Assembly (NCBI RefSeq): GCF_026712245.1
Contig: NZ_JAPPUY010000003.1
Coordinates: 1 to 64,000 of the forward strand
DNA from: Roseateles hydrophilus
GTDB taxonomy: Bacteria; Pseudomonadota; Gammaproteobacteria; Burkholderiales; Burkholderiaceae_C
Length of the DNA stretch: 64,000 bases
Reading direction: 5' to 3'
The number at the start of each line of letters is the position of its first letter. Within the stretch, counting starts at the first letter, position 1. The position numbers and the translations under genes are program-made. Below are positions 23,227 to 51,450 of this stretch, piece by piece. The notes under the pieces were generated by a model. The model made no database searches. It was not told the origin of the DNA and saw nothing but the letters and a program-made list of their open reading frames with translations.

Positions 23227-26200
23227 TCACTTGAAGTCCCGACTCTTCGTCGGGAGTTCGCCCAGCATCGGCGTCAGATCCTCCAGGTGCTTGGCGATGA
23301 TGTTGCACACCGCGCCTTGCCGCTGCCAGCGCCCCTTCACCGCCATCAGCCGCGCGCCCAGCACCACAGGCCTGAGGTGCGGCTTCTCCGCGATCACGCT
23401 GTAGACGATCAACTGGATCTCGCCTTCCTCGTCCTCCAGCGACACAAAGATCACGCCGTTGGCGGTCTCCGGTCGCTGCCGGGTGGTCACCAGGCCTACG
23501 GTCTGCACCTCGGCGCCATCTGGCACGTCCATGAGCTGCCGTGACGTCAACAGTCGGCGGTTGGGAAGCGCCTGCAGCGTGGGCCGCAGCAAGAGCAGGG
23601 GATGGCTGCGCAGCGTCATGCGAAGCGAGGCGTAGTCGAAGGTCACTTCCTCGCCCTCAGGGGCCTGCGGCAATTCCAGGTAGTCCTCATGCACCGGCGC
23701 ATCCCTGAGCAAGGGCGGCGTACTCCTGAGGGCGGATGCCGTCCAGACCTGCTGGCGACGATGACCGCTCAAGCTGGCCAGCGCGTCTGCCGACGCGAGC
23801 ACCGTCATCTGCTGCTGATTCAAGCCCGCACGACGGGCGAGATCCTCGGCGCTGGTGAAGAGCTGAGTCGCTCTGACCCGGCACAGCGCCTCGACCGAGG
23901 CCTGCTGCAAGCCCTTGATGATCTTCAGGCCCAGCCGCACGGCCGTGCCGCCGTCATGGGGCTCCAGCGTGCACTCCCAGTCACTGTGCAGCACGTCAGG
24001 CGGCAGGACCGTCACGCCGTTGCGCTGGGCGTCCTGCAGCAACTGGCTGGTGCTGTAAAAGCCCAGCGGCTGGGCGTTCACCATCGCCGCGAAGAACTCC
24101 ATCGGGTGGTGGCACTTGAGCCAGCAGCTGGCGTAGACCAGCAGCGCAAACGACGCCGCGTGGGATTCCGGAAACCCATACTCGCTGAAGCCCTGGATCT
24201 GCTTGAAGATGGACTCCGCAAACGCTGCGTCGTAGCCCCGGGCGGCCATGCCCTTGGTGATCTTGTCGTAGTGCTTCTGCAAGCCGCCCTTGCGCTTCCA
24301 GGCCGCCATGTCACGACGCAGGCCATCGGCTTCACCCCCCGTGTAGCCGGCCGCGATCATCGCGATCTGCATGACCTGCTCCTGAAAGATCGGCACGCCC
24401 AGGGTGCGCTCAAGCGCAGGGCGGAGTTCCTCGCTGGGGATCACCACCGACTCCAGCCCCTGCCGGCGGTTCAGGTAGGGATGCACCATGCCGCCTTGGA
24501 TGGGGCCGGGGCGCACGATGGCGACTTCCACCACCAGGTCGTAGAAGCAGCGCGGCTGCATACGCGGCAAGCTCGCCCGCTGGGCCCTGCTCTCGATCTG
24601 GAACACGCCGATGGTCTCGGCACGGCAGATCATGTCGTAGGTCTGCGGGTCCTCGGGCGGGATGTCCTGCATGAGGAACTCGTAGCCCTTGGTCTGGCTG
24701 ACCAGGTTGAGCGTCTTGCGGATCGCCGTGAGCATGCCCAGGCCCAGCACGTCGACCTTCATGAGGCCGACTGCATCGATGTCATCCTTGTCCCACTGGA
24801 TGATGGTGCGGTCCTCCATCGATGCGTTCTCCACCGGCACAAGCCGCGTGAGTGGGCCGTTGCTGAGCACGAAGCCGCCCGGGTGCTGGGACATGTGGCG
24901 CGGCATGTTGAGGATCTGACGCACCAGCGCGATGAGCTGCTGCACGCCCAGGTCCTCGACATCGATCCCGACCTCGCGCAGCCGCTGTGGATCGACCTCG
25001 TTCTCCCACCAGGGAAAGTTGTCGTTGAGCCGCTGCAAGAACTCCAGCTCGAAGCCCAAGGCCTTGCCCACGTCCTTGAGGGCACTCTTGATGCGGTACG
25101 AGATCACGACGGCGGTCAGGGCAGCACGCGCGCGGCCGTACTTCTCGTAGAGGTACTGGATCACCTCCTCGCGCCGCTCGTGCTCGAAGTCGATGTCGAT
25201 GTCTGGCGGCTCATCGCGCTCCCGGCTGATGAAGCGCTCCAGAAGCGTAGACAGCCGCGCCGGGTCGACCTCAGTCACGCCGGTGGCGTAGCAGACCACC
25301 GAGTTCGCGGCCGAGCCGCGGCCCTGGCAGAGGATGTGCCGGCTGCGCGCAAACTGCACGATGTCGGCGACTGTCAGGAAGTAGTGCTCGTAGCGGAGCT
25401 CGCTGATCAGCTCCAGCTCCTTCTCGATCTGCTCGCTCACCGCAGCGGGGATGCCATCCGGCCAGCGCCGGCCGGCTCCTTCGTAGGTGATGCGGCGCAG
25501 GTGGCTCGCGGGCGTCTCGCCCTCCGGCACGACCTCGCTGGGGTAGTGGTACCGGATCTCATCCAGGCTGAAGTCGCAGCGGTCGGCCACGACCACGGTC
25601 TGGGCGATGAGGTCCGCCGGAAAGGTTCTGGCCAGGCGTCCACGCGTGCGCAGGTGGCGCTCGGCATTGATGTCCAGCGCCTTGCCGCACTCGGTCAGTG
25701 GCTTGCGCAGGCGTACGGCCGTCATGACGTCCATCAGCGCCTTGCGACCGCGGACATGCATGGTGGAGTCGCCAACTGCCACCAGCGGAATCTCGGTCTC
25801 CGCGCTCACGGCACGCAGCCGCTCCAGGCGGATCTCGTCATCACTGCGGCGCAACTGGTCCAGCCCCAGCCAGGCACGGCCGATGAAGTGGGTCAGCAGC
25901 CAGCGGCCCAGCTGCAGCAAGGCCTCGGCCTTGGCGTGGCGCTGTGGGCAGGCGATGACGACACAGTCATCCAGCACGCCGCCCAGAAGATCCTCCAGCG
26001 CCAGCCGGTAGCTGCCCTTCGCCGCAGCACGGCGCAGCTGCGAGATGAACTGGCAGAGGTTGCCGTAGCCGTTGATGTTGCAGGCCAGCACCACGAGCGT
26101 GAACGGGAATGCACAGTCGACGTCGAACTGGCTGCCCACCAGCAGCTTGATGCCCCGGGCCTTGGCCTCGACATGCGCGCGCACGATGCCCGCCACCGAG

Positions 26201-26337
26201 CACTCATCGGTGATTGCGATGGCGGCGTAGCCCAGTTGGTGCGCGCGCTCGACCAACTCCTGGGGCCAACTGGCCCCCTTGAGAAAGGAAAAGTTGCTGA
26301 TGCAACGCAGCTCGGCGTAGGCGGGAAGCTCGGCCAT
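23227..26337 (-). CDS. dnaE2: error-prone DNA polymerase III alpha subunit DnaE2
   Basis: A 1036-residue protein, the usual length for DnaE2/ImuC. It starts MAELPAYAELRCISNFSFLK, the PHP-domain beginning typical of the family. The palm aspartates are in EPPDIDIDFEHERREEVIQY, followed by YEKYGRARAALTAVVISYR; further family blocks are MSQHPGGFVLSNGPLTRLVP, KVDVLGLGMLTAIRKTL and GVPIFQEQVMQIAMIAAGYT. The C-terminus carries an OB-fold (TVGLVTTRQRPETANGVIFV). It performs error-prone synthesis past lesions, recruited by ImuB. Its start is 15 bases after the imuB stop. A long open frame on the opposite strand is a high-GC shadow. Confidence 0.97.
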   Translation of the reverse strand: MAELPAYAELRCISNFSFLKGASWPQELVERAHQLGYAAIAITDECSVAGIVRAHVEAKARGIKLLVGSQFDVDCAFPFTLVVLACNINGYGNLCQFISQLRRAAAKGSYRLALEDLLGGVLDDCVVIACPQRHAKAEALLQLGRWLLTHFIGRAWLGLDQLRRSDDEIRLERLRAVSAETEIPLVAVGDSTMHVRGRKALMDVMTAVRLRKPLTECGKALDINAERHLRTRGRLARTFPADLIAQTVVVADRCDFSLDEIRYHYPSEVVPEGETPASHLRRITYEGAGRRWPDGIPAAVSEQIEKELELISELRYEHYFLTVADIVQFARSRHILCQGRGSAANSVVCYATGVTEVDPARLSTLLERFISRERDEPPDIDIDFEHERREEVIQYLYEKYGRARAALTAVVISYRIKSALKDVGKALGFELEFLQRLNDNFPWWENEVDPQRLREVGIDVEDLGVQQLIALVRQILNMPRHMSQHPGGFVLSNGPLTRLVPVENASMEDRTIIQWDKDDIDAVGLMKVDVLGLGMLTAIRKTLNLVSQTKGYEFLMQDIPPEDPQTYDMICRAETIGVFQIESRAQRASLPRMQPRCFYDLVVEVAIVRPGPIQGGMVHPYLNRRQGLESVVIPSEELRPALERTLGVPIFQEQVMQIAMIAAGYTGGEADGLRRDMAAWKRKGGLQKHYDKITKGMAARGYDAAFAESIFKQIQGFSEYGFPESHAASFALLVYASCWLKCHHPMEFFAAMVNAQPLGFYSTSQLLQDAQRNGVTVLPPDVLHSDWECTLEPHDGGTAVRLGLKIIKGLQQASVEALCRVRATQLFTSAEDLARRAGLNQQQMTVLASADALASLSGHRRQQVWTASALRSTPPLLRDAPVHEDYLELPQAPEGEEVTFDYASLRMTLRSHPLLLLRPTLQALPNRRLLTSRQLMDVPDGAEVQTVGLVTTRQRPETANGVIFVSLEDEEGEIQLIVYSVIAEKPHLRPVVLGARLMAVKGRWQRQGAVCNIIAKHLEDLTPMLGELPTKSRDFK

Positions 26338-26352
26338 CGCGACACCATGGGC

Positions 26353-27690
26353 TCAGGCGTAGACGCCATCGAGGAACCAGGCCAACTCGCCGCTGTCGAG
26401 TTGCTCGCAGAAGATCGACAACGTGCCAGCCGTCTCCGACACCGCCACCCAGTAGTCGCGCTGAACGCTGTTCGTCGTTCCCACACCGGGTACCCGGTCC
26501 CACCAGCCGCACTCCACCAACTCGGGCCCGACCAACAAGGTCAACGGGCCTTGGTAATGCGGGCATCCATCCCGCACGGCCAGTCGCAAGGGGGCCTCCT
26601 GCAGCATGGTCGGCGCAGGAAGCTCTGGCACAGGCTCTGGCTTGCGAGGCCTTCGCTTGGCCGCCGGCGACCAACGGGCAGCAAAGCCGGAGCGGTGGTC
26701 GTCACAGCGGTAGGGCGTCAGGACGCACTCGGCCCCAAACCGCGCAGCCAGGCGCTCAGCCAGCAGGATCAGTGATTCGCCGCTGCCCAGGCTCTGCGGC
26801 AGCAGCGACAGGGACTGCTCGGTCACGCGCTCGACGCCCACCGCCGCCAGTTGCAACTCACCCACCGGTGCGGGCAGTTGCACCTGCGCCAGGTGCTCCG
26901 CCAACAGCCGCGTGAAGTGCTCCAGATCGCGCATGGGCTCGGCTGACCGGATCGTCACCGCGCCCCCGTCGCCAGCGTCTTTGGCCCGCATGGCGTCGTG
27001 CACCCAGCGCAGCGTGTAGCCCTCGGCACCCGCGTGCTTGGCTGTGAGCCAGCCGCACATCTGCATCAGCATGGGTCGCGCATACGTGAGCAGCGCTGAT
27101 GCGTTGTCTTCCCTGGCCGGCAACTCGTAGCGGATGTGAAAGGTCTCGGGGATGACCTCCCACTTGAAGGCCTCGGGCATGCGGCCATAGGCCTGGTCCA
27201 AGGCCAGGAGCAGCCGGTCACCCCAGCGTCGGCTGACGCCGTCGCGGGGGAGCCGGCGCAACTGCCCCAGCGTGGTCACCCCCATGCGGGCCAGCACCTC
27301 GGCGTGCTGGGCCGCCTCGGTGAGCTCGGTCAGCGGCAGTGCGTCCAGGACGGTCTGCAGGTCTTGCTCGCCGAGATCATGGACGCCGCATCTGGCCAGC
27401 ACCAGCGCAGCCAGGGCATGAGGCGCCCACCCCATGCCGATGACACCCAGGTCCGGCGCTTCATCGCGGATGCGGGCCTTGAGTGCAGCCTCTCCCTTGA
27501 AGAGCTTCAGGCTTGCCTGGACCTCCGCCACGACCGCACAGCCTTCCAGCTTGGCCACCCGGGGCGTGAACTGCAGGCACCACAGCGCCAGGCCGTCCAG
27601 GGGATCAGGCGAGGCTGGCTGCTCGGGCGATGGCGTCTGCGGCGGTTCTGGCGGTGGCGTGGGCGAGATGACGAGGGCGACCCAGAGCAC
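26353..27690 (-). CDS. imuB: ImuB, inactive Y-family polymerase-like mutasome protein
   Basis: A 445-residue protein. The GTG at 27690 was chosen because it follows GGAGG by six bases and begins VLWVALVISPTPPPEPPQ, the usual ImuB start; the frame is open further upstream. Y-polymerase-like palm, thumb and little-finger regions follow (FTPRVAKLEGCAVVAEVQAS, GMGWAPHALAALVLARCG, RLPRDGVSRRWGDRLLLALD). The catalytic carboxylates of active Y polymerases are not evident, as expected. ImuB bridges DnaE2 and the sliding clamp. The gene overlaps the end of imuA by 86 bases and is followed after 15 bases by dnaE2. Confidence 0.95.
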   Translation of the reverse strand: MLWVALVISPTPPPEPPQTPSPEQPASPDPLDGLALWCLQFTPRVAKLEGCAVVAEVQASLKLFKGEAALKARIRDEAPDLGVIGMGWAPHALAALVLARCGVHDLGEQDLQTVLDALPLTELTEAAQHAEVLARMGVTTLGQLRRLPRDGVSRRWGDRLLLALDQAYGRMPEAFKWEVIPETFHIRYELPAREDNASALLTYARPMLMQMCGWLTAKHAGAEGYTLRWVHDAMRAKDAGDGGAVTIRSAEPMRDLEHFTRLLAEHLAQVQLPAPVGELQLAAVGVERVTEQSLSLLPQSLGSGESLILLAERLAARFGAECVLTPYRCDDHRSGFAARWSPAAKRRPRKPEPVPELPAPTMLQEAPLRLAVRDGCPHYQGPLTLLVGPELVECGWWDRVPGVGTTNSVQRDYWVAVSETAGTLSIFCEQLDSGELAWFLDGVYA

Positions 27691-28519
27691 GTTGGGCCTC
27701 CATGAGGGCGATGAGCTGGCTGGGACGACGCATGCGCCGGGTGAGCACATGGTCCAAACCGCCGGGGATGGAAGGGAGCGTCAGCGGTGCCTCCAAAGGC
27801 GCACCGCGGCGCTTGAAGACTTCAACCCGCATCTGCCAGTCGACCAGCAGGGACGCGAACACGCGCAGAGGGGCTGGTGACGGGTCGTGCCGAGCGTGCA
27901 CAGGTCGGATGATGAAGACAGGGCCTTCGCAGCCTTGGGCCAAGACCTGCAAGCGGCGGAGTTGCTCTGGCCTGGCCTGCGGCAGCCAGGTCAAGATGGC
28001 AGCTGCAGCGTTGGAGCGGATGGCCTGCTCGGTGGCCCACAGCCGCTGGGACGGCGGGTCGACCTTGACCCAAAGCAGGTTGTCTTCCTCGATACCCAGG
28101 TGGCGAAGACCGTCCGGGTTGGGGCGCTTGGGGTGGCCGATGACCACCACCGAGCGGCCGCCGCTGACCAGGGGGCGCAGGCTCGGCCCAACCAGTCGCC
28201 ACTCCAGCAAGGAGGGCTGTGGCTGCAGGATCTCGATGAGGCAGCCCAAGGGCCAGCCGCCGTCCACCAGCGCCGCATCCAAGGCCGCAAAGCCGGTGGA
28301 GACGAAACCCGCGCGGCTGCCGCCCAACTGGTTGGCGCGCCACACGGTATCGAGCAACTGGGGTGGAACCTCGGGGGGCGCGCCATCAACCACGGGGGCG
28401 GGGTCCTGCACAGGCACGGCCCTAACCGTCTCAGCCGGGACAACCGGGGTGAGGGGCTTGGGTTCGGGGGCAGAGCTCAGGATGAGCTCCGTCTGGGTGG
28501 GCGCGAGCATGTGCGGCAT
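27605..28519 (-). CDS. imuA: ImuA, RecA-like mutasome protein
   Basis: About 304 residues from the ATG at 28519; an ATG at 28510 is equally possible and neither has a clear ribosome site. The N-terminal 45 residues are Pro/Val-rich. The RecA/SulA-like core follows: STGFAALDAALVDGGWPLGC, LIEILQP, GRSVVVIGHPKRPNPDGL, LWVKVDPPSQRLWATEQAI and AAAILTWLPQARPEQLRRLQ. In the family, ImuA supports DnaE2-dependent mutagenesis after DNA damage. It is the first gene of imuA-imuB-dnaE2 and lies immediately behind a perfect LexA box, so it should be induced by the SOS response. Confidence 0.92.
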   Translation of the reverse strand: MPHMLAPTQTELILSSAPEPKPLTPVVPAETVRAVPVQDPAPVVDGAPPEVPPQLLDTVWRANQLGGSRAGFVSTGFAALDAALVDGGWPLGCLIEILQPQPSLLEWRLVGPSLRPLVSGGRSVVVIGHPKRPNPDGLRHLGIEEDNLLWVKVDPPSQRLWATEQAIRSNAAAAILTWLPQARPEQLRRLQVLAQGCEGPVFIIRPVHARHDPSPAPLRVFASLLVDWQMRVEVFKRRGAPLEAPLTLPSIPGGLDHVLTRRMRRPSQLIALMEAQRALGRPRHLAHATARTAADAIARAASLA

Positions 28520-28520
28520 A

Positions 28521-28540
28521 TACTGTTTATTTATACAGTA
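28521..28540 (-). promoter_or_regulatory. LexA (SOS) box of imuA-imuB-dnaE2
   Basis: The 20 bases TACTGTTTATTTATACAGTA contain the consensus CTGT-N8-ACAG core with fully palindromic outer bases. The box ends one base upstream of the imuA start, so LexA binding would block both transcription and access to the start region. Typical for SOS mutasome operons. Confidence 0.92.
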
Positions 28541-28546
28541 CACCAT

Positions 28547-29106: not shown

Positions 29107-29529
29107 ATGAAAGTCGCTCACCAGCTAACGGGTCACGCCACGCCCGCTCTGGCAATCCTCGCCACCGCGCTGTTCACGCTGTCCCCTGCTCACGCTCAGC
29201 AGTACACCGGTGCGGGGAGTACGCTTCAACCGAGCGTGCAGTACCAGCAGATGCAGCGCGAGCAGGCTCGTCGGGCGCAGCAGTACTACTACGTGCAAGC
29301 CCCCCCCGCCCCCCAGCAGCGCCAAGCCGAACAGAGCAAGTTCATGTATCCGGATTCCTCGCTGCGCGCGATTGGCTTCCCGCCGGTTCCTGTTCAGATG
29401 TCGCCTCAGGCAATTGATCGGATCTCGGAGCGCATGCCTCGTTGCATGGCGGGAGCGGCATTCGGCTACGCACAAGGGGGCCGTCGTGGAGCCGCTGTGG
29501 GGTTCGTCCAGGGCTGCTCTGGCTGGTAG
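29107..29529 (+). CDS. secreted protein with glycine-rich C-terminus
   Basis: A 140-residue protein with ribosome site TTAGGAG and a signal peptide (HATPALAILATALFTLSPAH, then AQ). The mature part is Gln-rich at its start (SVQYQQMQREQARRAQQYYY, then a proline stretch), and ends with GAAFGYAQGGRRGAAVGFVQ and a final cysteine, a glycine-zipper-like pattern seen in small envelope proteins. Two cysteines (PRCM and QGCSGW) could form a disulphide. No enzymatic motif. It is 81 bases upstream of another signal-peptide protein, in the same direction. Function unknown. Confidence 0.75.
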   Translation: MKVAHQLTGHATPALAILATALFTLSPAHAQQYTGAGSTLQPSVQYQQMQREQARRAQQYYYVQAPPAPQQRQAEQSKFMYPDSSLRAIGFPPVPVQMSPQAIDRISERMPRCMAGAAFGYAQGGRRGAAVGFVQGCSGW

Positions 29530-29610
29530 CTACTCAACAGGGCGCTAGTTCAGCTCCAAGTTGATCTAGCGTCCTCCCCCGATTTCTCACATCCAAGCAG
29601 GAGGTCTGCT

Positions 29611-30288
29611 ATGAAGCGTCGTGCATTGATTTTTAGCGGTGCGGCTATGGTCTTGGCCCCGTTGCCTGCACTCGCGATCGCGCCTGCGGTCCTTGCGATC
29701 TACCTCAGTCTGATTTCAGCCGGAGGTCTCGTTCTCTCCGCAAAGGTCGCGGCCGATCGCAATGCGGAGTCCAACCGAGAAACAGCAAACATTCAGATGG
29801 CAATTGAGCGCATGCGTCAGGAATTTCAGTTCAGAATCCTTTCCTACCAAGTGGGTAGCCATGGCGTTCGCCAAGAAGCAGCATTCAATCGAGATGTTCC
29901 TGCTCGGCAAGGGTGGACAGACGATGTCGATGATCAAGGCACATACATGGGCCTCTCGAACGGTTTGATTGCGGCCGAGCGCGGCAAGTTCAGCGGCACG
30001 ATATCCACTGCCGAAGTCTCCAAGTTCACTGAAAAGACTCGCCACGGTTTAATCATGCCCGTGCCGGTCGAGGACGGTTATCACGACTATTCCGCGCGTG
30101 ATGCCGATCGAGTTGCCGCAATGCTTCGTCCTACCATGGGCGAGGATTCCCGAGTCATTGCAGGTCGACGCTACTCGGTGGCATCGAAGCCGACTACCGC
30201 CGGATGGGACCTCGAAACCGTGCTTTATGCCGACGGCAAGAATGATGTGAAGGCCGCGACCTTGATGCGGTCAAAGCTTTATGGCTGA
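29611..30288 (+). CDS. secreted protein of unknown function
   Basis: A 225-residue protein with a strong ribosome site (CAGGAGGTC) and an N-terminus MKRRALIFSGAAMVLAPLPA with a twin-arginine-free signal peptide or membrane anchor, followed by a second hydrophobic stretch (APAVLAIYLSLISAGGLVLS). A helical region (NRETANIQMAIERMRQEFQF) and a beta-rich C-terminal half follow. No recognisable domain. Its stop overlaps the next gene's start by eight bases, indicating translational coupling with the PDZ-like lipoprotein. Probably an envelope protein. Confidence 0.75.
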   Translation: MKRRALIFSGAAMVLAPLPALAIAPAVLAIYLSLISAGGLVLSAKVAADRNAESNRETANIQMAIERMRQEFQFRILSYQVGSHGVRQEAAFNRDVPARQGWTDDVDDQGTYMGLSNGLIAAERGKFSGTISTAEVSKFTEKTRHGLIMPVPVEDGYHDYSARDADRVAAMLRPTMGEDSRVIAGRRYSVASKPTTAGWDLETVLYADGKNDVKAATLMRSKLYG

Positions 30289-30814
30289 AGCGCCGTGCTC
30301 ACGGGGTCTGCAGTTCCTGGTCATCGCATTGGCCCTACAAGCTTGTGCGTCCTCTGGTGGCGGGCCGAATGCCCGATCACCAGAGACAAATCGCCCTGCC
30401 GTAGTTGCAGCAAGAGACATACCAAACAACTCGAACCTTAGCGCTATATCTTGTGGGATGCACCAGCCCAGTTCGGACGGACGAAGAGCCTTTTTTGGGA
30501 TTGAGCTCGCCCCCGGAACCACAACTGTCTCAGGGTACTTTTACTGCGGCTCGGCTTCTCCGGCGAAAAGTGCTGGAGTTCAGATCGGAGACAGAATTGC
30601 GAAAGTGAAGGGGTGCAGCGTCAGAAGCGCGGAAGAGGTCGCACAACAGTTCAGTGAAGCCGCTCCGAGTACGCTTGTCTTCATTGAGGTCGAGCGGCTC
30701 GGAATGGCTGGGACGAAGTCGATTGCAGTACCGGTCTTGAGCCAAATTCCCAACAACTTGAATCGACCGGGAAGAGATCCGGCGAGCAATCGCTGTCAGC
30801 TGACATCACGATGA
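30281..30814 (+). CDS. lipoprotein with degenerate PDZ domain
   Basis: A 177-residue protein whose N-terminus ends in a lipobox, FLVIALALQACASSG, predicting lipidation of the cysteine. From about residue 85 a PDZ-like module is visible: GYFYCGSASPAKSAGVQIGD, RIAKVKGCSVRSAEEVAQQF and STLVFIEVERLG, where the SPAKSAGVQIGDRI block matches the usual peptide-groove segment. No protease domain is attached. The start overlaps the end of the preceding secreted-protein gene, so the two are probably made together and may interact at the envelope. Confidence 0.75.
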   Translation: MAEAPCSRGLQFLVIALALQACASSGGGPNARSPETNRPAVVAARDIPNNSNLSAISCGMHQPSSDGRRAFFGIELAPGTTTVSGYFYCGSASPAKSAGVQIGDRIAKVKGCSVRSAEEVAQQFSEAAPSTLVFIEVERLGMAGTKSIAVPVLSQIPNNLNRPGRDPASNRCQLTSR

Positions 30815-31112
30815 TTTGTCTTTTGACAGAGCATAGGGAAGTTGCCGCGCATCCCCTGCCGTGCCGACTCCCGAAGTCCAACCTGCAACTTTCCCTACAG
30901 ATCCGAGCGATGCTCCGGGTCGGCTGCGGCAACATCGCAGCCACGCCTAGCTGGTGTCTTGCATCAGGCAGCGGCAGTGGTGGTTGTACCGCATTTCAGT
31001 GATGGCGTGGACTTGAAAGTGCGGCGGTCATCAACATGCGCCTGGCTATGCTGAAAGAGAAAGGCTTCGTGTCATCCATCGTGATCGAGCAGCCATACAG
31101 GAAGAAGTTTTC
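30815..31112. other. intergenic region upstream of the TPR-CHAT operon
   Basis: About 300 bases with no supported gene. It must contain the promoter of the TPR-CHAT gene; no unambiguous -35/-10 pair was found. The ribosome site of that gene is CAGGAAGAAG. Confidence 0.4.
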
Positions 31113-34100
31113 ATGGATAAGGTTTTGGAGGCGCGGGCTGAAGCGTTGTTCGAGGCAGGGCTGAGTGCCTATGAGGCTGGTCGGGTTCAGGAGGCTGTGG
31201 CGGATTGGAGCGCTGCCTTGGCTATGTTTGAGGAGTTGATTGGGAGGGGCGAGGCTCGGTTTGCATGCCAGCGCGCTGTCATGCTGAACCTCTTGGGTCT
31301 GGCCTCCAAAACTAGCGGTGCGCTGCAGCAGGCGGCGGGTTACGTCGATCAGGCTCTGACCGCCTATGACGAATTGATCAAGGCCGACCAGAGCCAATCC
31401 GCGTACGTTCGTGTCGGCATGCTGGTGCAATTGGGCCACTGGTTCTTCGGAAGGCGCGAGGTGCTGAAGGCCAAGAACTACTACGAGCAGGCCATGGTCG
31501 CAACTGAGGGAATGATCAAGGCCGGGCAGATCAAAGGTGCCATCGAGCGCATCTATGAGCTAGACGGTCTGGGTGGTCTCATACACGGCATTGACGAGCT
31601 ACCGCGCATGAGGGCACGCTACGAGCAAGCCGTGGCCGCTTGTGATGAACTGATCCGGTCCGGCCAAATTCAGTTTGCGTCCGATCGAGCTGGGATGCTG
31701 ATAGAACTGGGCCGTAATTTGTCCGCCAGCGGCGAGCTACCGAAGGCTGTGGAGCACTTTGAGCAGGCCCTGGCTGCCTATGACGAACTGATCCGGCCCG
31801 ACCAAACCCGGTTCGCGGCCGAACGCGCTCACACGCTGCGCGATCTGGCCGAAACCTTGTTGAATAGCAGAGGCGGGCTGCCACAAGCGATGGACCGCTA
31901 TAGGCAAGCCCTGACTGCCTATGAAGAATTGATCCGGTCCGGCCAGAGTCGGCTCGCGTCCGATTGCGCCGACATGCTGGCTCGACTGGGAGCAACCCTG
32001 TGCGCCATGCGGCAGTTCCACGCCGCGGCTGAAGCTCACGACTTGGCTTTGGAATTTGGTTGCCGGGCATTGCGGGCGGAGCATTGGCATCATTTGGTGA
32101 GTTGGGTCGAAACAGCGTCAATACGCTGGCGTTCGGTCTGGAGTAAGGCGGGGTCGACGCAAGGAACCAACATGCTGACGCAGTTGACGGATCTGGCGGC
32201 GCAGATGAAGCAGTTCCTGCGGGCCCCGGGTGTTGACGATGTATTTGGCTGGTACAGCCTAGGACCTCTAATGGAGTTGCTAACCTCCGCGGCGCCTGGT
32301 ACTCCGCCGGCACAAGGTCTGGATGCCGGGGCGTTGGAGGCTTATGACAGCGTGCTTGCGACTGCGCTGAGCTGCGTGCATCGCGCGTCTCTCAATAGTT
32401 CCCCGGAGGCAGATCAAACGCGGCGGGCTAATCTGCAGCGTTACGTGGCCGAGCTTCAGCACCTATGTGCTGCACGCAGCGCGAACCTGTTGGCGGAATG
32501 GTTTCTTCGCAGCCAGGGCCTGCGTGCGCAGCGTGCCGCCATGGCCGGCAGCCGCGACCCGGAACTGCAGGAATTGGAACGACGCTATCAGGCACTTGAC
32601 TCCCTGGGCCGCACGCTGCTGGGCACGAAGGGGCGTGATGACGACTCTCGCCTGGGTGGCAATGGTCATACAGATTCGGACAGCCGGCAGCATGTACAGG
32701 CGCCGAAGGAAACCATGCGCAAGGAGCGGCGTGCGTACGCGTATGCGCTAAACCAGGTCCGTCTGTTCCAAACTGAACTGCGCAAGCGCGGCAAACTACC
32801 GAACGAAACGCAGGCGCTTGAACTTGCCGAGTTGCGCCGCTGCTTGCGGCCAAGACAGGTCCTTTTGATGCTGGCGCCGGACCTTGCTAAGGAAGCTGCC
32901 AACGTCTGGGCCATCTCGCTGCTCCCACCTTCGGCCAATCCAGAGCCGGACGCCCAGGCGACGGCCCTGAAGATTCCCCTGCACTGTCAGGCACGCCTGC
33001 CCGACTTGCTCGCTCGCGTGAGTGCCTTGGCTGCACGAGGCGGGCGATCCGTCCGCGAAGGTCCGGCAGGCCGGGGCGATAGCACGGCGGTCCGGGCGAC
33101 GAGCGCTGACCCGGAGGCCGCCGCGAACCTGGACCATGCGCTCAGGCAGGAGCTTGAGCAAGCCCTGCGCCCTGTCTGGCAGGCATTGCAGCAGCATGCG
33201 GTGGATGAAGTCGTGCTGGTGCCGACCGGCCTGCTTCACCAGGTGCCGTGGACGCGCTGGCTGGCGGATTGCGGAATCGCCATCCGGGTGCTTCCCAGCG
33301 TCGGCGCTTTTGTCCGCAGTTGCCAGGCACCTGCGCCCCAACTTGAGGTCGATGCTGCGTTGCGTGTGGCCGTGCTCGGCCATGATGCGACGGACCACAA
33401 TGACCCGCGTAAGCACTTGCCCCTGGTCAATGCGGAAATCAGCCTCAGCCTGGCGCAATGGAATCAGGCAGCCACGGCGTCGGGGATCAGGTTGCAGAGC
33501 GATCGCGCCGAATGGCAGCCCGCCGATGCAGCCGCCTCGACCAGGCTGCTAGTGGGCATGGGTCACGGCGGCGCCGCCGAGGGCAACCCGGCGCATTCCG
33601 GTCTGGTGCTGGCCTATGACGAGGAAGCGACGCCCCGCCTCTTCACCGCCTACGATTTGCCCGCCATCCACCATGCTCATTGGCTGCTGCTGAGTTGCTG
33701 CGTCCTGGCCCGGACCGATGAAATCATGGGCGAGCCCATGGGCATGGCCGCCAATGCATTCGACTTCCAGTCGCGTTGCGTGATGGGCTCCTTGGTCACC
33801 GTCGGGGACCTGGATGCGAGCCTGGTGAGCCTGGCGCTGCAATGGGCGCTGGGTCGCCAGCGCGAGGCCTTGGCCCGCGGCTCGCCGATCGAAGTGTTCA
33901 ATGCGACGCAGGCCGCGCTGTGCGCCGGCCGGTGGCCGGAGGGCTTCGGTGCCTGGCTGCAAGGGCATCTCCCCACGGCCCTGGCGCAGGCTCCCCGGCA
34001 AGCTAGGCAAGCGAATGGCGCTGGCGTGACCTTGGCGCGGAATCTGCGTGCGGCAGTTGCAAGCATGGGCTTGCCGGACCTGGGCTTCAAAAGTGATATG

Positions 34101-34205
34101 GACCCGCGGCACCCGGCCTTGTTGGCCTTCGCCGAAGTGCTTGCGCAGCGCCCGCCCGCCTCGGTGCAGGTGGCGGCGGCCTGGTTTGTTGGACTGGGTC
34201 TTTGA
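31113..34205 (+). CDS. TPR-CHAT caspase-like protease
   Basis: A 1030-residue protein. Residues about 1-320 hold at least five TPR-like modules of 46-47 residues with the shared phrase (A)xAYDELIRxxQxxFA. The C-terminal region is a CHAT domain (caspase/separase clan): VDEVVLVPTGLLHQVPWTRW, the catalytic histidine in LLVGMGHGGAAEGN (about 817) and the catalytic cysteine in HWLLLSCCVLART (about 861), then EPMGMAANAFDFQSRCVMGS. Both dyad residues are present, so it should be an active cysteine protease. It is followed after 23 bases by an unrecognised partner and then an alarmone hydrolase. TPR-CHAT proteins are often effectors cleaving a co-encoded partner; that role is inferred. Confidence 0.92.
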   Translation: MDKVLEARAEALFEAGLSAYEAGRVQEAVADWSAALAMFEELIGRGEARFACQRAVMLNLLGLASKTSGALQQAAGYVDQALTAYDELIKADQSQSAYVRVGMLVQLGHWFFGRREVLKAKNYYEQAMVATEGMIKAGQIKGAIERIYELDGLGGLIHGIDELPRMRARYEQAVAACDELIRSGQIQFASDRAGMLIELGRNLSASGELPKAVEHFEQALAAYDELIRPDQTRFAAERAHTLRDLAETLLNSRGGLPQAMDRYRQALTAYEELIRSGQSRLASDCADMLARLGATLCAMRQFHAAAEAHDLALEFGCRALRAEHWHHLVSWVETASIRWRSVWSKAGSTQGTNMLTQLTDLAAQMKQFLRAPGVDDVFGWYSLGPLMELLTSAAPGTPPAQGLDAGALEAYDSVLATALSCVHRASLNSSPEADQTRRANLQRYVAELQHLCAARSANLLAEWFLRSQGLRAQRAAMAGSRDPELQELERRYQALDSLGRTLLGTKGRDDDSRLGGNGHTDSDSRQHVQAPKETMRKERRAYAYALNQVRLFQTELRKRGKLPNETQALELAELRRCLRPRQVLLMLAPDLAKEAANVWAISLLPPSANPEPDAQATALKIPLHCQARLPDLLARVSALAARGGRSVREGPAGRGDSTAVRATSADPEAAANLDHALRQELEQALRPVWQALQQHAVDEVVLVPTGLLHQVPWTRWLADCGIAIRVLPSVGAFVRSCQAPAPQLEVDAALRVAVLGHDATDHNDPRKHLPLVNAEISLSLAQWNQAATASGIRLQSDRAEWQPADAAASTRLLVGMGHGGAAEGNPAHSGLVLAYDEEATPRLFTAYDLPAIHHAHWLLLSCCVLARTDEIMGEPMGMAANAFDFQSRCVMGSLVTVGDLDASLVSLALQWALGRQREALARGSPIEVFNATQAALCAGRWPEGFGAWLQGHLPTALAQAPRQARQANGAGVTLARNLRAAVASMGLPDLGFKSDMDPRHPALLAFAEVLAQRPPASVQVAAAWFVGLGL

Positions 34206-34228
34206 ACGGAATTCTTCGGGAGCGCCCT

Positions 34229-35776
34229 ATGCCGGGTTCAAGTGCGTTGGAAATCATCAAGGCTGGTCTGCGCGAGAGGCTTTGGCAGGAGCCGGACTCG
34301 GCGGCGACCAATGACTACTACTGGCGGCGTAAAACGCGTGCGGACGACGAAGGCGTGCATCGCTTCGTGGCGCCCGATGTTGCGGGGCCCCAGGGCCAGC
34401 GGTTGTGGGCGTGGTTGGCAGGCTTTGGCCAGGCGTGGAACTTGCCGCGTGGGCCGGAGAATGCGGAGCAGGCTCGGCGTGATTTCAACTGGCTCGGCAG
34501 TCCTGGCAGCCCTGTGGCGCAGACGTCCTACCACATGGCCTGCGCGCTTGAGCTTCTGGGCGTTTCTCTCGTTAGCAAAGAATCTATCGCTCGATTGCTG
34601 GAGATCGGCGCACCGAGTGATCCTGCAAAGGTGTTTCATGGGCCCGATCGTGAATGGATCAAGCGGGTCTGGAACGGCATCTACGCGCTCATGGAGCAGT
34701 GCCTTCTGGCCGTGGACGCGAAGGTCGAAGACCTGCCTGAAGCATGCTTCGCGCCACTTCGACGTGACGGCACTGATCGGACCGTGCAGGCATTCAAGCG
34801 TTGGGGCAAGGGCGGCTACGCTGACTGGCGCGAGTTCACGGCAGCCTTGGGCAAGGACGATGTGTGGTGCCTCAATCTGAAGAGCACACCGAACGCCTAC
34901 TGGCACCCGATCATCCGGATCTGGGCCTGCCATCGCCCGTATCACACAGTTGCTGTGCCCTTTCAGCCTGTCTTGGCCGAAAGCTGGGTCGGCCGTTGTC
35001 GACGGCCCGAAGGCGAAGTTGGCTTCCCACAGAAAGACGCGCCCTGGGGCCGGCAGCCAAGCTTCGTGTCCCCCATCGCCCTTTTGATCGCGGCCATGGC
35101 GATGGACAAATACATTTCATCCGACAAGGCAAAGCTTCGGCGTCTGGAGGAATTCATGAAAAACCAGAATGCGTTGTTCGGCGTGGTGCGCATCGGTGAC
35201 AACTGGGCTCCGGACGACGTCTTTGCGCGCATCAGCCAGTTGCGCCTGCTGGCGCAGGGCCGTGTGATGGGCGCTCCCTTGAATCCGGCAGGGCCGCAGG
35301 AGCGACCCGGTGCGCGCTTCTTGGCCAGCCCCGAGAAGCAGTCGAATCAATCGATGCTCGCTGGCGCACAGGGCGTCGTCCAGGCCGTTAGGCTCAGGCC
35401 GCCCACCTTCCATGGGAACGACCGCTCCACTTTGGCGGTCAGAATTCCATACGCGGCGCTGGGTACGGCGTTGGACGACGTCCTGGCGCAATGGGTGCTG
35501 GACGGCCCCGCTTGTTTCGTGGACGTTCTAGACGATGCGACCCTGGTGCACGAAGCCGTGTTCCTGGCGGAGGTGGAAGCTGTAGACCGCGCGGAACCTG
35601 CCGCCGACGCCATTGAACTGCTCCTGCGGCCTCGCCCACCGGCATGCAGCCGCTTGCTGCGGCATTGGGAAGGGACAATCCCCGACCATGCCCTGCAGTA
35701 CGAATGCTGGCTTGTCAACGCCGCTGCAAATCCGCAAGTCATGCAGCCGATGCTGCTGCTGCGGGTCACGATGTAG
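34229..35776 (+). CDS. unrecognised partner of the TPR-CHAT protease
   Basis: A 515-residue protein from the ATG at 34229 (GGGAG seven bases upstream); a TTG at 34202 overlapping the CHAT stop is an alternative. It begins MPGSSALEIIKAGLRERLWQ. No signal peptide or known motif. It is tryptophan-rich in the first 260 residues (RLWAWLAGFGQAWNLP, DREWIKRVWNGIYALMEQCL) and has a helix SPIALLIAAMAMDKYISSDK near the middle; the last 130 residues look beta-rich (STLAVRIPYAALGTALDDVL). Tight spacing behind the CHAT gene suggests a substrate, regulator or effector. Several arginine-rich loops could be protease sites, but none can be assigned. Confidence 0.7.
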   Translation: MPGSSALEIIKAGLRERLWQEPDSAATNDYYWRRKTRADDEGVHRFVAPDVAGPQGQRLWAWLAGFGQAWNLPRGPENAEQARRDFNWLGSPGSPVAQTSYHMACALELLGVSLVSKESIARLLEIGAPSDPAKVFHGPDREWIKRVWNGIYALMEQCLLAVDAKVEDLPEACFAPLRRDGTDRTVQAFKRWGKGGYADWREFTAALGKDDVWCLNLKSTPNAYWHPIIRIWACHRPYHTVAVPFQPVLAESWVGRCRRPEGEVGFPQKDAPWGRQPSFVSPIALLIAAMAMDKYISSDKAKLRRLEEFMKNQNALFGVVRIGDNWAPDDVFARISQLRLLAQGRVMGAPLNPAGPQERPGARFLASPEKQSNQSMLAGAQGVVQAVRLRPPTFHGNDRSTLAVRIPYAALGTALDDVLAQWVLDGPACFVDVLDDATLVHEAVFLAEVEAVDRAEPAADAIELLLRPRPPACSRLLRHWEGTIPDHALQYECWLVNAAANPQVMQPMLLLRVTM

Positions 35777-35884
35777 CCAGGACGAGGGTTTTGGCCAGGC
35801 AGCGGGTTTCCCCACACGAGGCCAGACGACGCGCATCCCAATTCTCAAAATCTGCTGTGCCCTTTCACCCTCAGGAGCACAGCC

Positions 35885-36562
35885 ATGAAAACCGACCAAA
35901 CCCCGCGACGTCGGGTCGACTCGAACATCCTCCTTTACGCCGCCCAACTGATCAACACCTGCCTACGGCACGGCCACGATACCGACACGGTCCTCGCCGC
36001 TCTGCTGCTTGCCGCCGATGCCCATGCGGGTCAGACGCGCGAGTCCGACGGGCGTCCGTACGTCAGCCATTCGATCGTCGTGGCAACCCTGGTTGCTACG
36101 TGGGGTGCGTCTACTACTGCAGTGGTCGTGGGCTTGTTGCACGACGTCGTCGAGGACGCGCCCGGCTTCGAGCCCTGTATCGAGACCATGTTCGGCGAGA
36201 AGGTCGCCGCGATGGTCAGCGCGCTTTCCAAGAAGAGCAAGGAAGTCCTGGCGACGCGTCGTGAAAGGATTGAGGAGCAAAGGAGCCGCTTCGCGGTTGC
36301 GCTGGCCGTTCACGGCCAAGAATTGGCCTTAGTGAAGCTCGCGGATCGCCTTCACAACCTGTCGACCAGCGCCACTCTGGAGCCTGCCCGCCAGCAGCGG
36401 CTCCTCGATGAAAGCCGGGAGTACTACGCGCCGCTGGCGCTGCAACTCGGCATGTCGGAACTGGCCGGCTTGATGCTGCGTCCGGAGGCATGGAGCCAGG
36501 ACGCTCCAGCCTTGGCCCGAGTCGGCGCCGCTCATGCTAGGCACCATTCAATGGCGAGTTGA
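35885..36562 (+). CDS. small HD-domain (p)ppGpp hydrolase-like protein
   Basis: A 225-residue protein with ribosome site CTCAGGAG. It reads as the hydrolase half of RelA/SpoT or a small alarmone hydrolase: ADAHAGQTRESDGRPYVSHS, then VVVGLLHDVVEDAPGFEPCI with the HD pair and the following ED, and ALVKLADRLHNLSTSATLEP with the conserved KxADRxxN. No synthetase, TGS or ACT domains are present. It would degrade (p)ppGpp or a related pyrophosphorylated nucleotide. It follows the CHAT partner by 108 bases on the same strand and ends just before a strong hairpin, so it is probably the third gene of that operon. Confidence 0.88.
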   Translation: MKTDQTPRRRVDSNILLYAAQLINTCLRHGHDTDTVLAALLLAADAHAGQTRESDGRPYVSHSIVVATLVATWGASTTAVVVGLLHDVVEDAPGFEPCIETMFGEKVAAMVSALSKKSKEVLATRRERIEEQRSRFAVALAVHGQELALVKLADRLHNLSTSATLEPARQQRLLDESREYYAPLALQLGMSELAGLMLRPEAWSQDAPALARVGAAHARHHSMAS

Positions 36563-36602
36563 AGTTTCCTTCTCACTCACCTCACCCCGCAGCCTGTTCT
36601 CT

Positions 36603-36647
36603 GGTCGCGGTAGGGGCGGGGAGTAATTCACCGTCCCTACCGCGACC
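36603..36647 (+). terminator. 17-base-pair hairpin after the alarmone hydrolase
   Basis: GGTCGCGGTAGGGGCGG (36603-36619) pairs with CCGTCCCTACCGCGACC (36631-36647) with a single G-U and an 11-base loop. It lies 40 bases past the stop. There is no U-tract, so it may be a terminator, a 3'-end stabiliser or a protein-binding palindrome. Confidence 0.6.
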
Positions 36648-37039
36648 CGCGAAGTCGCCCAGGGCGCATACGCACTCCTGAGCCAACCGACCGCACGAGG
36701 GAATGCGCACCGTTTTGCCGTGCCTACATCTAGTACATCAACGAGCAGGCCGCTCCCAAGTAGATCGGAAAGAGCCGGCGAACGAGGACGCCCGGACCGG
36801 ACCTTCGTGGATACCTGCTTTGGGTCGATTGCTACCAGACGCGACTGGCTGCTTCCTTGCCAAGCGGCCGCGGCGGGTCCCCGCCGCTCCTCGCTGTTCC
36901 GGTCCCGCTGTTCAGGTCGGACCAGTTCGGCTGTTCATCTTGGATCGAGCTAGCGGCTAAAGTCGGGGTGAAGCACACAGCGCTGCTTTGCCTTCCCGGT
37001 ATTGGCGCAGGCGAGGTGCTCTGGGGCGCTTGAGTGACC
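36648..37039. other. intergenic region
   Basis: About 390 bases with only weak overlapping open frames; no supported gene. Confidence 0.4.
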
Positions 37040-37231
37040 ATGGAGGCCCACTTTGCCAACCCGGTCTTGGTGGTCACCTTCACCTTCGAATTGTGTGAAG
37101 TGAACCGGGTGCCGGAGCCGTTTTCGCCGGCGCTCATCGCGGTCGCTGGGCTGACCGCGGCATGGGGACGACGCGCCGCCCGGAGACCGGCCGAGGCTCA
37201 GCAGTTCGCGGCGGGGCAATCGAACCGCTAG
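37040..37231 (+). pseudogene. PEP-CTERM protein C-terminal remnant
   Basis: The frame encodes a strand FANPVLVVTFTFELCEVNR followed by VPEPFSPALIAVAGLTAAWG and RRAARR: the tripartite exosortase sorting signal (PEP, hydrophobic helix, basic tail). There is no signal peptide or body upstream in frame, so this is the tail of a deleted PEP-CTERM gene. A read-through tail of about 16 residues follows the basic motif. Confidence 0.65.
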
Positions 37232-38052: not shown

Positions 38053-38763
38053 CTAGAAGAGCGGTGGCTCAGCGTCGAGGTTGCCGGCTTCCGGCAGCGG
38101 CCTCGGCTTGGCTTTGGCCCGCGGCGCCAGCGGCTTGGGCTCAGCCTCCAGCAGCTCGGCGGGGAACTGCTTCATGAAGCTGGGGGCGGCTTCGACGGAG
38201 CAATTCAGCCAGGCGTCGAAGTCTGCCGGGTGCAGGATGACAGGCATGCGCTTCTCGTCTTCCGGCCGGTGGAAGCGGCGGTACAGCGCATGGTCATCGG
38301 CGTTGACGGTGAGCATCGTGTACGTCGGCACGCGCTCGCCTGTCTTGGGGTCAATCCACATGCCCCACAGGCCAGCGACGCCCATCGGGCCGCTGACAGG
38401 GCGAATCGCCCAGCGAACTGCCTTGCCAGTCTCCCAGCAGGGCTCGTACAGCTCTTCGGCGGGGATGATGCACCAGCGCCGCTTGCGCCAGGCCTCGCGG
38501 AAGCTGGGTTTCTCCGCGGCCGTCTCCGAGCGGCAGTTGTAGGTCTTGCGCCCGAGCAGCATGTCCTTCGACCAGTGCGGCAGCAACCCGTACTGGCCGG
38601 CCATCGCCTCGCGCCCAGCTGCTTCTTTGTCGTCAGCGCGCACGATGAACGGAGCTCGGTAGCCAGGCCATGTTTCGACCGGCGTCTCATCGTCTGGACG
38701 TACGACCCCGAAGTGCGCCAGCAGGCGGTCCTCAAGGGTCACAGGCTTGTAGTTCGAGCACAT
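38053..38763 (-). CDS. yedK: SRAP-domain protein YedK/HMCES-like
   Basis: A 236-residue protein beginning MCSNYKPVTLEDRLLAHFGV; removal of Met exposes the catalytic Cys2, which forms a thiazolidine link to abasic sites in single-stranded DNA. Other family blocks: NCRSETAAEKPSFREAWRKR, RWCIIPAEELYEP with the active-site glutamate, GLWGMWIDPKTGE, TMLTVNADDHALYRRFH and RMPVILHPADFDAWL with the conserved histidine. It shields abasic sites during replication. The C-terminal 25 residues are a Pro/Lys tail. It is divergent from the BLUF gene. No LexA box was found at its start although relatives are often SOS-linked. Confidence 0.95.
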   Translation of the reverse strand: MCSNYKPVTLEDRLLAHFGVVRPDDETPVETWPGYRAPFIVRADDKEAAGREAMAGQYGLLPHWSKDMLLGRKTYNCRSETAAEKPSFREAWRKRRWCIIPAEELYEPCWETGKAVRWAIRPVSGPMGVAGLWGMWIDPKTGERVPTYTMLTVNADDHALYRRFHRPEDEKRMPVILHPADFDAWLNCSVEAAPSFMKQFPAELLEAEPKPLAPRAKAKPRPLPEAGNLDAEPPLF

Positions 38764-38925
38764 AGCGTGGAGTTTGGCTGTTCCGTCTGCCGATTCAACC
38801 GCCCACCATCGCCCTCAGACGCAGCTCAACAGGCCAGGCTCAAACAACCTCACGGCTGCCAGCCTGACAACGAACCCCTAGCATCCCCAGCCCGAAAGAC
38901 TTGGTGCTGTTCACAGGAGCCCCGC

Positions 38926-44298: not shown

Positions 44299-46026
44299 GT
44301 GGACATCCAAACCGCTGAGTTCTACGACAAGAACGCCGCCGAGCTCGCGGCGTCGTATGAGTCAGTTTCCAGCCCAATCCAGCGGTACTTCCCTCTCGCA
44401 TTTGCCGCGAACAGCCGAGTTTTGGATGTCGGCGCAGGCTCAGGCAGGGACCTTGCTGCACTCTTGGATGCAGGCTACGACGCCTACGGGGTAGAGCCTT
44501 GTGCGGGCTTGCGCGCTGCTGCCCTAGCGGCGCATCCGGCCCTCGAGGGACGCCTTGCCGATGGCGCGTTGCCAGCGCTCAGCACACCCTTCGCAGGTGG
44601 GTTCGACGGCATCGTCTGCTGTGCCGTCTTCATGCATGTGCCGCAGGCCGAACTGTTCGATGCTGCCATGGGACTGCGCAGCTTGCTCAAACCCCACGGC
44701 CGCCTGCTGCTCTCCGTTCCGACGGGCCGCACGGATATCCAGCAGAACAACCGAGATGCAAACGGTCGGCTGTTTGAGCCGTACGCGCCGGAAGAGTTGC
44801 TCCTGCTCTTCGAACGCCTTGGATTCCAGCAGATTGGGCGCTGGGACACGCATGATGCCCTCCAGCGCGTCGGCACCACATGGGTCACGCTGTTGCTGGA
44901 GCTGCGCACAACTGGCCAGCTGAGAGCTGTGGACCAGATCGAGGGCATCCTCAACCGCGATCGCAAAGTTGCCACCTACAAGCTCGCCCTGTTCCGTGCC
45001 CTAGCCGAGATTGCTACACAGGAGCCAAGAGCAGCACGGTGGCTCCATGGGGGGCGGGTCGCCATCCCCCTCGATCGCCTTGCACGGCGATGGCTGGTGT
45101 ACTACTGGCCCATCGTGGCAAGCCCCATCTTCGTTCCACAGACTCAAGCTGAAGGCGCAGGGAATCGCCAGCAGCCGATGGCTTTTCGTGCGGCGCTCCA
45201 GAACCTGATTCAGCGGTTTTCGAGCCTAGGAGCCCACGGCGGACTGACTGCTTGGCACCTGGCCTCCACATCGGGCCGACTTCCTGCGGAAACAGCCACG
45301 GCGGAGCGCGAGGCGCTGCGGGCCATCGCTCACGCCATCCGCTCAGGCCCCGTGACGTATTCGGGCGGTGCGCTCGAAACTGGGCGAGTCTTCGAGTACG
45401 ACGCGTCGTCGAGGAGCGTTCTGCTATCGGATGGGCTGTGGCGTGAGTTGTGTCTGTTGGGACACTGGATCATCGATGCCGTGATCGTCCGATGGGCCGC
45501 ACTGACCGAGCGTTTTTCCTTCCGCCAGGGTTTGCGCTCCGGCGACATCTTGCCCTTGCTACTGGCCGGCCCGGAACCAGATCGCGCGACTGCACAAGCC
45601 AGGTCGGTTTACCTTGCATCCGGCGTCGGAAGCTGCGCCTGGTCCGGTCGATCGCTGACCCAGCGCACTCTGGCTGTCGACCATGTGATCCCGTTCTCGC
45701 TTTGGGGCAACAACGATCTCTGGAACTTGGTGCCCGCCCACAGCGCCGTCAACAACCACAAGTCCGACAAACTTCCCGCCAGTGCGTTGCTACTTGAACG
45801 CCGTGGGGCGATTCTGGAGAGCTGGGGCTTGTTGCACGAGGCCATGCCTGATGCCTTCAGCAATCAGGCACTGCATCTGCTCGGCACACAGCACGCCAGT
45901 TGGGGCAAGCTCGCCGACGAACTGTTCGCACGGCTGCGAGAGGCCGTCGAGATCACTGCGTTGCAGCGGGGAGTCGAGCGATGGACGCCACGCTCCGGCG
46001 ATGGCTCGACCACCTCTGCGCACTGA
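44299..46026 (+). CDS. SAM methyltransferase-HNH endonuclease fusion
   Basis: A 575-residue protein. The GTG at 44299 is the only start near the preceding in-frame stop and gives the family-like beginning MDIQTAEFYDKNAAELAASY. Residues about 1-160 are a class I methyltransferase: SRVLDVGAGSGRDLAALLDA, YGVEPCAGLRAAALAAHPAL and PHGRLLLSVPTGR. After some 230 residues of linker comes an HNH domain (about 430-500): GSCAWSGRSLTQRTLAVDHV, IPFSLWGNNDLWNLVPAHSA and VNNHKSDKLP. One chain thus combines a modification-type and a cleavage-type domain. The methyltransferase resembles small-molecule or tRNA-type enzymes rather than a DNA methylase, so a restriction-modification role is open. A nine-codon frame starting at 44292 overlaps the start. 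Confidence 0.88.
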   Translation: MDIQTAEFYDKNAAELAASYESVSSPIQRYFPLAFAANSRVLDVGAGSGRDLAALLDAGYDAYGVEPCAGLRAAALAAHPALEGRLADGALPALSTPFAGGFDGIVCCAVFMHVPQAELFDAAMGLRSLLKPHGRLLLSVPTGRTDIQQNNRDANGRLFEPYAPEELLLLFERLGFQQIGRWDTHDALQRVGTTWVTLLLELRTTGQLRAVDQIEGILNRDRKVATYKLALFRALAEIATQEPRAARWLHGGRVAIPLDRLARRWLVYYWPIVASPIFVPQTQAEGAGNRQQPMAFRAALQNLIQRFSSLGAHGGLTAWHLASTSGRLPAETATAEREALRAIAHAIRSGPVTYSGGALETGRVFEYDASSRSVLLSDGLWRELCLLGHWIIDAVIVRWAALTERFSFRQGLRSGDILPLLLAGPEPDRATAQARSVYLASGVGSCAWSGRSLTQRTLAVDHVIPFSLWGNNDLWNLVPAHSAVNNHKSDKLPASALLLERRGAILESWGLLHEAMPDAFSNQALHLLGTQHASWGKLADELFARLREAVEITALQRGVERWTPRSGDGSTTSAH

Positions 46027-46092
46027 CGATGCGCGGCGCATCCTGCTTTGCCAAGAAGTCTCTCCTGCAGTTCCTCCTGTTCACCCGGACCG

Positions 46093-46884: not shown

Positions 46885-47301
46885 CCCCCACCAGAAAGTA
46901 GACCTAGGGGCAGATCGCAGAGGCGTACGTGGCGGCGCTGTCTCGGGAGGTATGCAACGCATCCTCGCGAAGTTCTCCAACAGCAAGCGGACGAGCTCAT
47001 CCAGGGCTTTCAGCGCGACCGGGATGCATTCCCGCTCAGCCTCGTAACGGGCATCCTTGGTGAAGCCGCAAGTGCTGACGTACGGGTCTTTGTTGTTGTT
47101 GTGAAAGTCGCCCAGGAAGCTTCCGATCTCCTGCGAGCCCCCGTCGGCACGCCGGGACAAACTCCCACACAAGAAGGCTGAAATGCCTATTCTGGCTCGC
47201 GTCTTATGCACTGATGCTCAGACTAGTGCCCTGTCACTTCGTGACAGCACCCAAACGCTGAGGCAGGATATGGCCCTGAATCAGGGACCCAACAACAAAA
47301 A
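46885..47301. other. intergenic region with palindrome
   Basis: About 415 bases. The minus-strand frame spanning 46567-47211 includes a somewhat protein-like stretch (PYVSTCGFTKDARYEAEREC, LDELVRLLLENFARM) and may be a gene remnant, but it runs antisense into endA and is not called. A palindrome CTGTCAC-TTC-GTGACAG sits at 47231-47247, about 55 bases upstream of the NERD-helicase start, a plausible operator. Confidence 0.4.
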
Positions 47302-51260: not shown

Positions 51261-51450
51261 TGCTCACCAGTGCAAGCCCTTCCGGCTTAGCGGGTATCCA
51301 AGCCCCGTTTGTTCAAGCGCGCCGTACAAAAATAGGCGGGCCTTGACACTTAGCCACTTTGATCGGGTGAATATTCCCAAACATCGAGTCTTCCCGCAGT
51401 CGTGTACATTTTCCAGCAACTACGGAAAAACTTTAGATTTTAGGGCTGTT

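Follow-up and report, generated by a model that had tools for sequence, protein, structure and literature searches.

Caspases and separase have ancestral cousins in the tetratricopeptide repeat (TPR)-CHAT proteases, of which, to our knowledge, few in bacteria have a known substrate. Here we analyse a locus of Roseateles hydrophilus (contig NZ_JAPPUY010000003.1, positions 1 to 64,000; this whole 64,000-nucleotide stretch is called the window) at which a TPR-CHAT protease gene is followed by a gene for a 515-residue orphan protein, here the partner, and by a stand-alone HD gene of the RelA/SpoT type (Table 1). Our tentative reading is that the first two genes form a unit of TPR-CHAT protease and partner, set in a defence-type island, and that the HD gene is its neighbour; to this reading we give somewhat less than an even chance.

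Comparison with described systems

Craspase, of type III-E CRISPR, contains Csx29, which like the protease here carries a TPR array and a C-terminal CHAT domain with a His/Cys dyad; the Csx29 catalytic residues are H615/C658 (PMC10028731), with H818/C863 as their counterpart here. Its target Csx30 is a 565-residue, non-toxic, soluble protein cut once by the TPR-CHAT protease (PMC10028731), and resembles our partner in being co-encoded, of soluble type and of similar size (565 vs 515 residues). Craspase differs, however, in its surroundings: the window has no CRISPR-like array (no 20-mer in at least 3 copies), no Cas match among the 15 window proteins scanned against PADLOC (8 + 7), and no Cas7-11, its only open reading frames (ORFs) above 1400 residues being a DUF4011 helicase and an RHS protein. 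A PDB sequence search with the partner, moreover, gave nothing at E values up to 10, and here an HD gene follows.

Other systems share single features with the locus. In bacterial gasdermin pairs a CHAT protease adjoins a possible substrate gene, as here, although sequence search alone does not identify our partner as a gasdermin, neither Pfam nor PADLOC giving a match. The canu (caspase-nuclease) loci lie in defence islands and combine TPR and a caspase-like protease with genes of unknown kind (PMC12799240), but the text of that paper names CHAT 0 times, and no nuclease is recognised in the 515-residue protein. Human separase, although eukaryotic, has a long helical repeat array and then a caspase-type protease, like the protease here. 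Like small alarmone hydrolases (SAHs) and Mesh1, for example XccSAH, the HD protein here stands alone; it keeps the HD fold residues, which it shares with the HD domain of long RSH enzymes too, and has no adjoining synthetase.

An apparently intact TPR-CHAT protease

The original prediction of an intact TPR-CHAT protease is supported by the Pfam matches, TPR_12 scoring 32.6 bits (cut-off 30.1) and CHAT (PF12770) 28.5 bits (cut-off 24). The TPR array occupies residues ~1-370 in 46-residue units and CHAT residues ~580-960; the protein is apparently intact, and its proteolytic activity is predicted from sequence. The predicted His/Cys dyad also stands, with its positions corrected from about 817 and 861 to H818 and C863. 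Both residues are invariant in 13/13 aligned sequences, with a His-Cys spacing of 39-50; residue 862 is likewise a cysteine, yet C863 is the position kept in 13/13 rows. The 12 metagenomic relatives of the protease are 25-28% identical across the alignment. An AF2 model (predicted local distance difference test, pLDDT, 72) gave human separase as its top Foldseek match (3.6e-9), with a poor overall superposition because the TM-score is 0.29/0.19; the Craspase TPR-CHAT chain 7xsq_B ranked 17th (3.4e-5, TM 0.24/0.33). The DNA of the TPR array is built of 138-nt units that are up to 71-73% alike, as in a sensor under diversification.

Close relatives of this protease are rare. Its CHAT part matches 1/399 genomes of the same GTDB-type family, namely its own, and a scan of 84,980 species genomes returned 151 contig stretches with a single true further relative, in a Piscinibacter metagenome-assembled genome (L037; 32% identity over residues 428-949). 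Among 8 genomes of that genus the match is again confined to L037 itself (1/8), and viral contigs and phages hold no relative. Pfam CHAT in general is common, occurring in 57/369 genomes of the class.

Several further candidates were set aside. A family search with the protease matched 5/200 genomes, the 4 besides its own at 18-28 bits over short pieces; an order-level alignment search matched 11/300, ten of which cover the TPR half only (profile positions 23-409) and were rejected; and a plasmid search gave a single TPR-only match over residues 6-301, an Acaryochloris CHAT protein whose listed neighbours, in an incomplete gene table, include neither an HD gene nor the partner. The R. hydrophilus genome carries a second CHAT gene (G000:C7:359194-359997, minus strand), a far better Pfam match at 163 bits, with no homologue of the partner or the HD gene within the surrounding 13 kb.

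An orphan partner

The partner gene begins 23 bases behind the protease gene when counted from its ATG; the ORF listed for it begins upstream, at TTG 34202. It looks like a real coding frame, with 0 stops where each of the five alternative frames has 3 to 19, and with a GC content by codon position of 0.67/0.48/0.73. The protein has 19 Trp and no transmembrane-like stretch (maximum 19-residue hydropathy mean 1.43). As first proposed, it belongs to no family that we could find: Pfam (even at E 10), NCBIfam, PADLOC, PHROG and PDB sequences gave no match, and a set of 5.8 billion proteins, searched twice (the first time scoring 7993 word-sharing candidates, the second time with residues 1-240 at E up to 10), yielded only the protein itself (P0001, on the window's own contig). 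Very distant relatives may escape such a search, because the tool requires shared five-residue words. No match was found in plasmids or phages, and no pattern match in viral contigs; among 60 related genomes the partner occurs in its own alone (1/60). In genomes of the class 4/369 matched at E 0.01, and we took the three besides its own (14.9-19.1 bits) for chance: two are interrupted by stops, and one is a 54-residue stretch within an 892-residue frame. An orphan without detectable relatives, the partner is remarkable, and what is gained at present is a candidate substrate family of which one member is known. The compact protease/partner pair, with its clearly defined dyad, is directly testable.

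By analogy with Csx29-Csx30 and other CHAT systems, the TPR superhelix would sense or dock a trigger, which would engage the caspase/separase-type site formed by H818 and C863. The activated protease would then cut the 515-residue protein, or this protein would hold and release the protease, and the altered partner would set off a cellular response, whether dormancy, death or transcriptional change. The HD gene product would be a working small alarmone hydrolase outside this switch.

A stand-alone HD protein

The third gene encodes, as originally described, a stand-alone protein resembling (p)ppGpp hydrolases. It matches Pfam HD_4 at 4.2e-25 and the first 153/687 positions of TIGR00691 (spoT_relA) at 1.7e-36, and shares 49/99 of the columns that are conserved in at least 95% of 29 long RelA/SpoT homologues (RSH). 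R52, H62, H86, D87, E90, D91, D154 and N158 are kept, identical in 29/29 of the long RSH compared; we take these to be the metal and catalytic residues. We consider the protein a likely active hydrolase, with an alarmone as its candidate substrate. Its PDB matches place it nearer to the HD domains of long RSH, whose chains score up to 89 bits, than to the short hydrolases and Mesh1, at 33-53 bits. Among the matches listed, it is 38-40% identical to the leading long RSH in the family, at most 40% identical to plasmid proteins and 38.8% to phage proteins.

Bacterial SAHs are often accompanied by toxic alarmone synthetases (PMC9765508), so the HD protein might be the antitoxin-like half of such a pair, with the 515-residue protein as the toxin or the toxin lost. 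Against this, a full-length RSH query aligns in the whole window to the HD segment alone and no synthetase domain was found, although a very divergent short synthetase could escape; the 515-residue protein has no Pfam match even at the loosest threshold used; and PMC9765508 describes orphan SAHs that lack a synthetase and accept a broad range of substrates, NADPH among them. We regard such a pair as extremely improbable.

Gene order, composition and the hairpin

The three genes lie head to tail on one strand, separated by gaps of 23 and 108 bases, and their GC content at third codon positions (GC3) is similar (protease 0.72, partner 0.73, HD 0.75), unlike that of the two genes directly upstream of the protease (0.59 and 0.54) and of the SRAP gene downstream (0.84). 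A single transcript for the protease and partner genes is plausible, and the HD gene might share it; the HD gene has its own ribosome-binding-like AGGAG in the 108-base gap. A 19-base direct repeat (95%), at 34951-34969 inside the partner gene and at 35853-35871 just before the HD start, may be chance.

The strong hairpin that had been noticed behind the HD gene proved real in folding: its 17-base arms (36603-36619 and 36631-36647) pair perfectly around an 11-base loop, and the RNA fold of 36560-36720 has a z of -3.58, with 0/200 shuffles equally good. It occurs once in the genome. The hairpin has no T tract and is therefore not a classical intrinsic terminator; it is absent from a terminator scan that requires a T run. 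A sigma-70-type scan gave 0 promoter-like sites in 30500-37200, and is uninformative for this organism.

Shared strand, short gaps, similar GC3, a hairpin after the last gene, and an HD protein with intact residues and no synthetase domain beside it would all suit a single three-gene system, in which the protease, once activated, works on the orphan protein while the HD protein removes or limits an alarmone, so that protease signalling is coupled to that of (p)ppGpp. Fungal NLRs, moreover, have both CHAT peptidases and RelA/SpoT hydrolases among their effector domains, listed as two distinct types (PMC10197012). A more specific version, a three-gene immune module, would have the protease switch the orphan protein while the HD protein strips (p)ppGpp or a related nucleotide, leaving a stringent response impossible or unneeded during attack. 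The 108-base gap and separate AGGAG of the HD gene argue against one system, as does the finding, given below, that sampled CHAT neighbourhoods have no RSH-type HD gene. The trio had been put forward as having no described precedent, and indeed we found no system of a TPR-CHAT protease and an alarmone hydrolase in the open-licence papers searched; in PMC10910872 'CHAT' and 'ppGpp' occur once each, at separate places of the figure-legend section. We judge the three-gene system improbable and the immune module quite improbable. Membership of the HD gene in the switch is possible, proximity and composition being what speaks for it, and if true would tie a caspase-like switch to alarmones for the first time.

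Conservation of the locus

The original prediction had the three genes form a single system that connects protease signalling with alarmones, and named homologues that fail to co-occur as a result that would refute it. As far as this comparison reaches, it speaks against the trio. The L037 locus lacks both companions, with chance scores in tblastn (best E 0.43 for the partner and 1.1 for the HD gene), and the partner was not found across the whole L037 genome at E 10. Directly upstream of the L037 CHAT gene lies a 569-residue gene that at its end runs over the earliest start the CHAT frame could have; downstream lies a convergent scpA. The 569-residue protein (L037 6772-8481, plus strand) has no Pfam match and is perhaps the L037 protease's own partner; as a distant form of the partner here it was rejected (best BLASTP E 1.2).

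A wider sample took in 40 CHAT regions from 29 genomes (497,529 bases), which include 42 of 115 listed CHAT matches; the regions were hand-picked for long contigs, and five end early at a contig end. A profile built from 29 RSH HD domains, excluding that of the window, recovers the window's HD at 111.6 bits and finds RSH-type HD genes in 0/41 neighbourhoods (the 40 regions and L037). One weak tblastn match to the HD gene, in L132 (E 2.7e-4), was not confirmed by the profile. Neither the partner nor the genes upstream of the protease matched anything in the 40 regions (tblastn, E 1e-3). CHAT and HD genes thus do not travel together in this sample, a result that bears on a general CHAT-HD association and not on the closest kin, because most of the sampled CHAT genes are distantly related. 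The partner offers no homologues to compare. Beyond this locus in one genome nothing supports a single system of three genes, and the HD hydrolase is more probably a neighbour of the switch than part of it.

The different flanking genes in L037, and the 40 further neighbourhoods that match neither the partner nor the upstream genes, would also suit a protease that acts alone on host or phage proteins, with the 515-residue and HD genes as passengers of the island. This we consider rather unlikely: the 23-base gap and the matching codon composition of the CHAT and partner genes tell against it, and among the CHAT proteases described so far a co-encoded substrate is frequent, as with Csx30 and gasdermins (PMC10028731, PMC10197012).

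Several points weigh against a two-gene protease/partner unit with an HD neighbour. Contact between the two proteins and cutting of the 515-residue protein are predictions by analogy; L037, the only relative whose neighbours were read, has no homologue of the partner or the HD gene beside its CHAT gene, and the protease/partner pair itself is therefore not conserved; PADLOC returns no match for any of the three genes; and the GC3 of the HD gene, resembling that of the other two, would fit a three-gene unit. On the structural side, the partner model (pLDDT 34) was not used, the CHAT model is weak directly after the catalytic cysteine (864-895, pLDDT <50), and a second aligner, VIA-align, covered the TPR part only, its rows containing no CHAT protein. 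Our best reading of the protease/partner unit is that it is fast-evolving.

Genomic surroundings

Defence-type genes are plentiful in the window, and we place the unit in a defence-type setting because the window holds a helicase-nuclease like Hhe and PDC-S37, a NERD-UvrD helicase and a methyltransferase-HNH protein. Six regions around an SRAP homologue in 5 same-genus genomes lack the trio and share only the SRAP gene with the window, except that one of them has two further window genes as well. A variable island fits, because the trio is missing and gene order is unshared in these six regions; no empty site can be demonstrated in the genus, because the SRAP surroundings are not syntenic.

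Table 1. Positions of the three genes, the hairpin and other features in the window
Feature	Position	Strand	Length	Remark
TPR-CHAT cysteine protease gene	31113-34205	+	1030 aa	ORF list, Pfam
Orphan partner gene	34229-35776	+	515 aa	Counted from ATG at 34229
Stand-alone RelA/SpoT-type HD gene, candidate small alarmone hydrolase	35885-36562	+	225 aa	
Perfect inverted repeat (hairpin)	36603-36647	.		Unit end or unrelated element
DUF4011/helicase/MTES_1575 nuclease gene	13335-19685	+	2116 aa	Matches PADLOC PDC-S37 and Hhe
ImuA-ImuB-DnaE2-like mutagenesis cassette	23227-28546	-		Named by eye from translations
Three small genes upstream of the protease	29107-30814	+		
Anti-hemB small RNA family RF02837	37446-37521	-		59.9 bits (gathering 49.5)
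SRAP gene	38053-38763	-		
Methyltransferase-HNH_4, endonuclease I and NERD-UvrD helicase genes, in a row	44299-49122	+		
RHS gene	51151-55596			

The large helicase/nuclease carries a C-terminal GreA/GreB domain (residues 2043-2115, E 3e-7). The three small genes upstream of the protease have signal-peptide-like starts, judged by eye; one has a PDZ domain, and two have a GC content of 0.56, lower than that of the trio. The anti-hemB match lies in the non-coding stretch behind the hairpin. A 297-base piece at the SRAP gene (38522-38818) recurs at 96% identity on a small contig of the same genome, C11, which also carries a stretch like the RHS gene.

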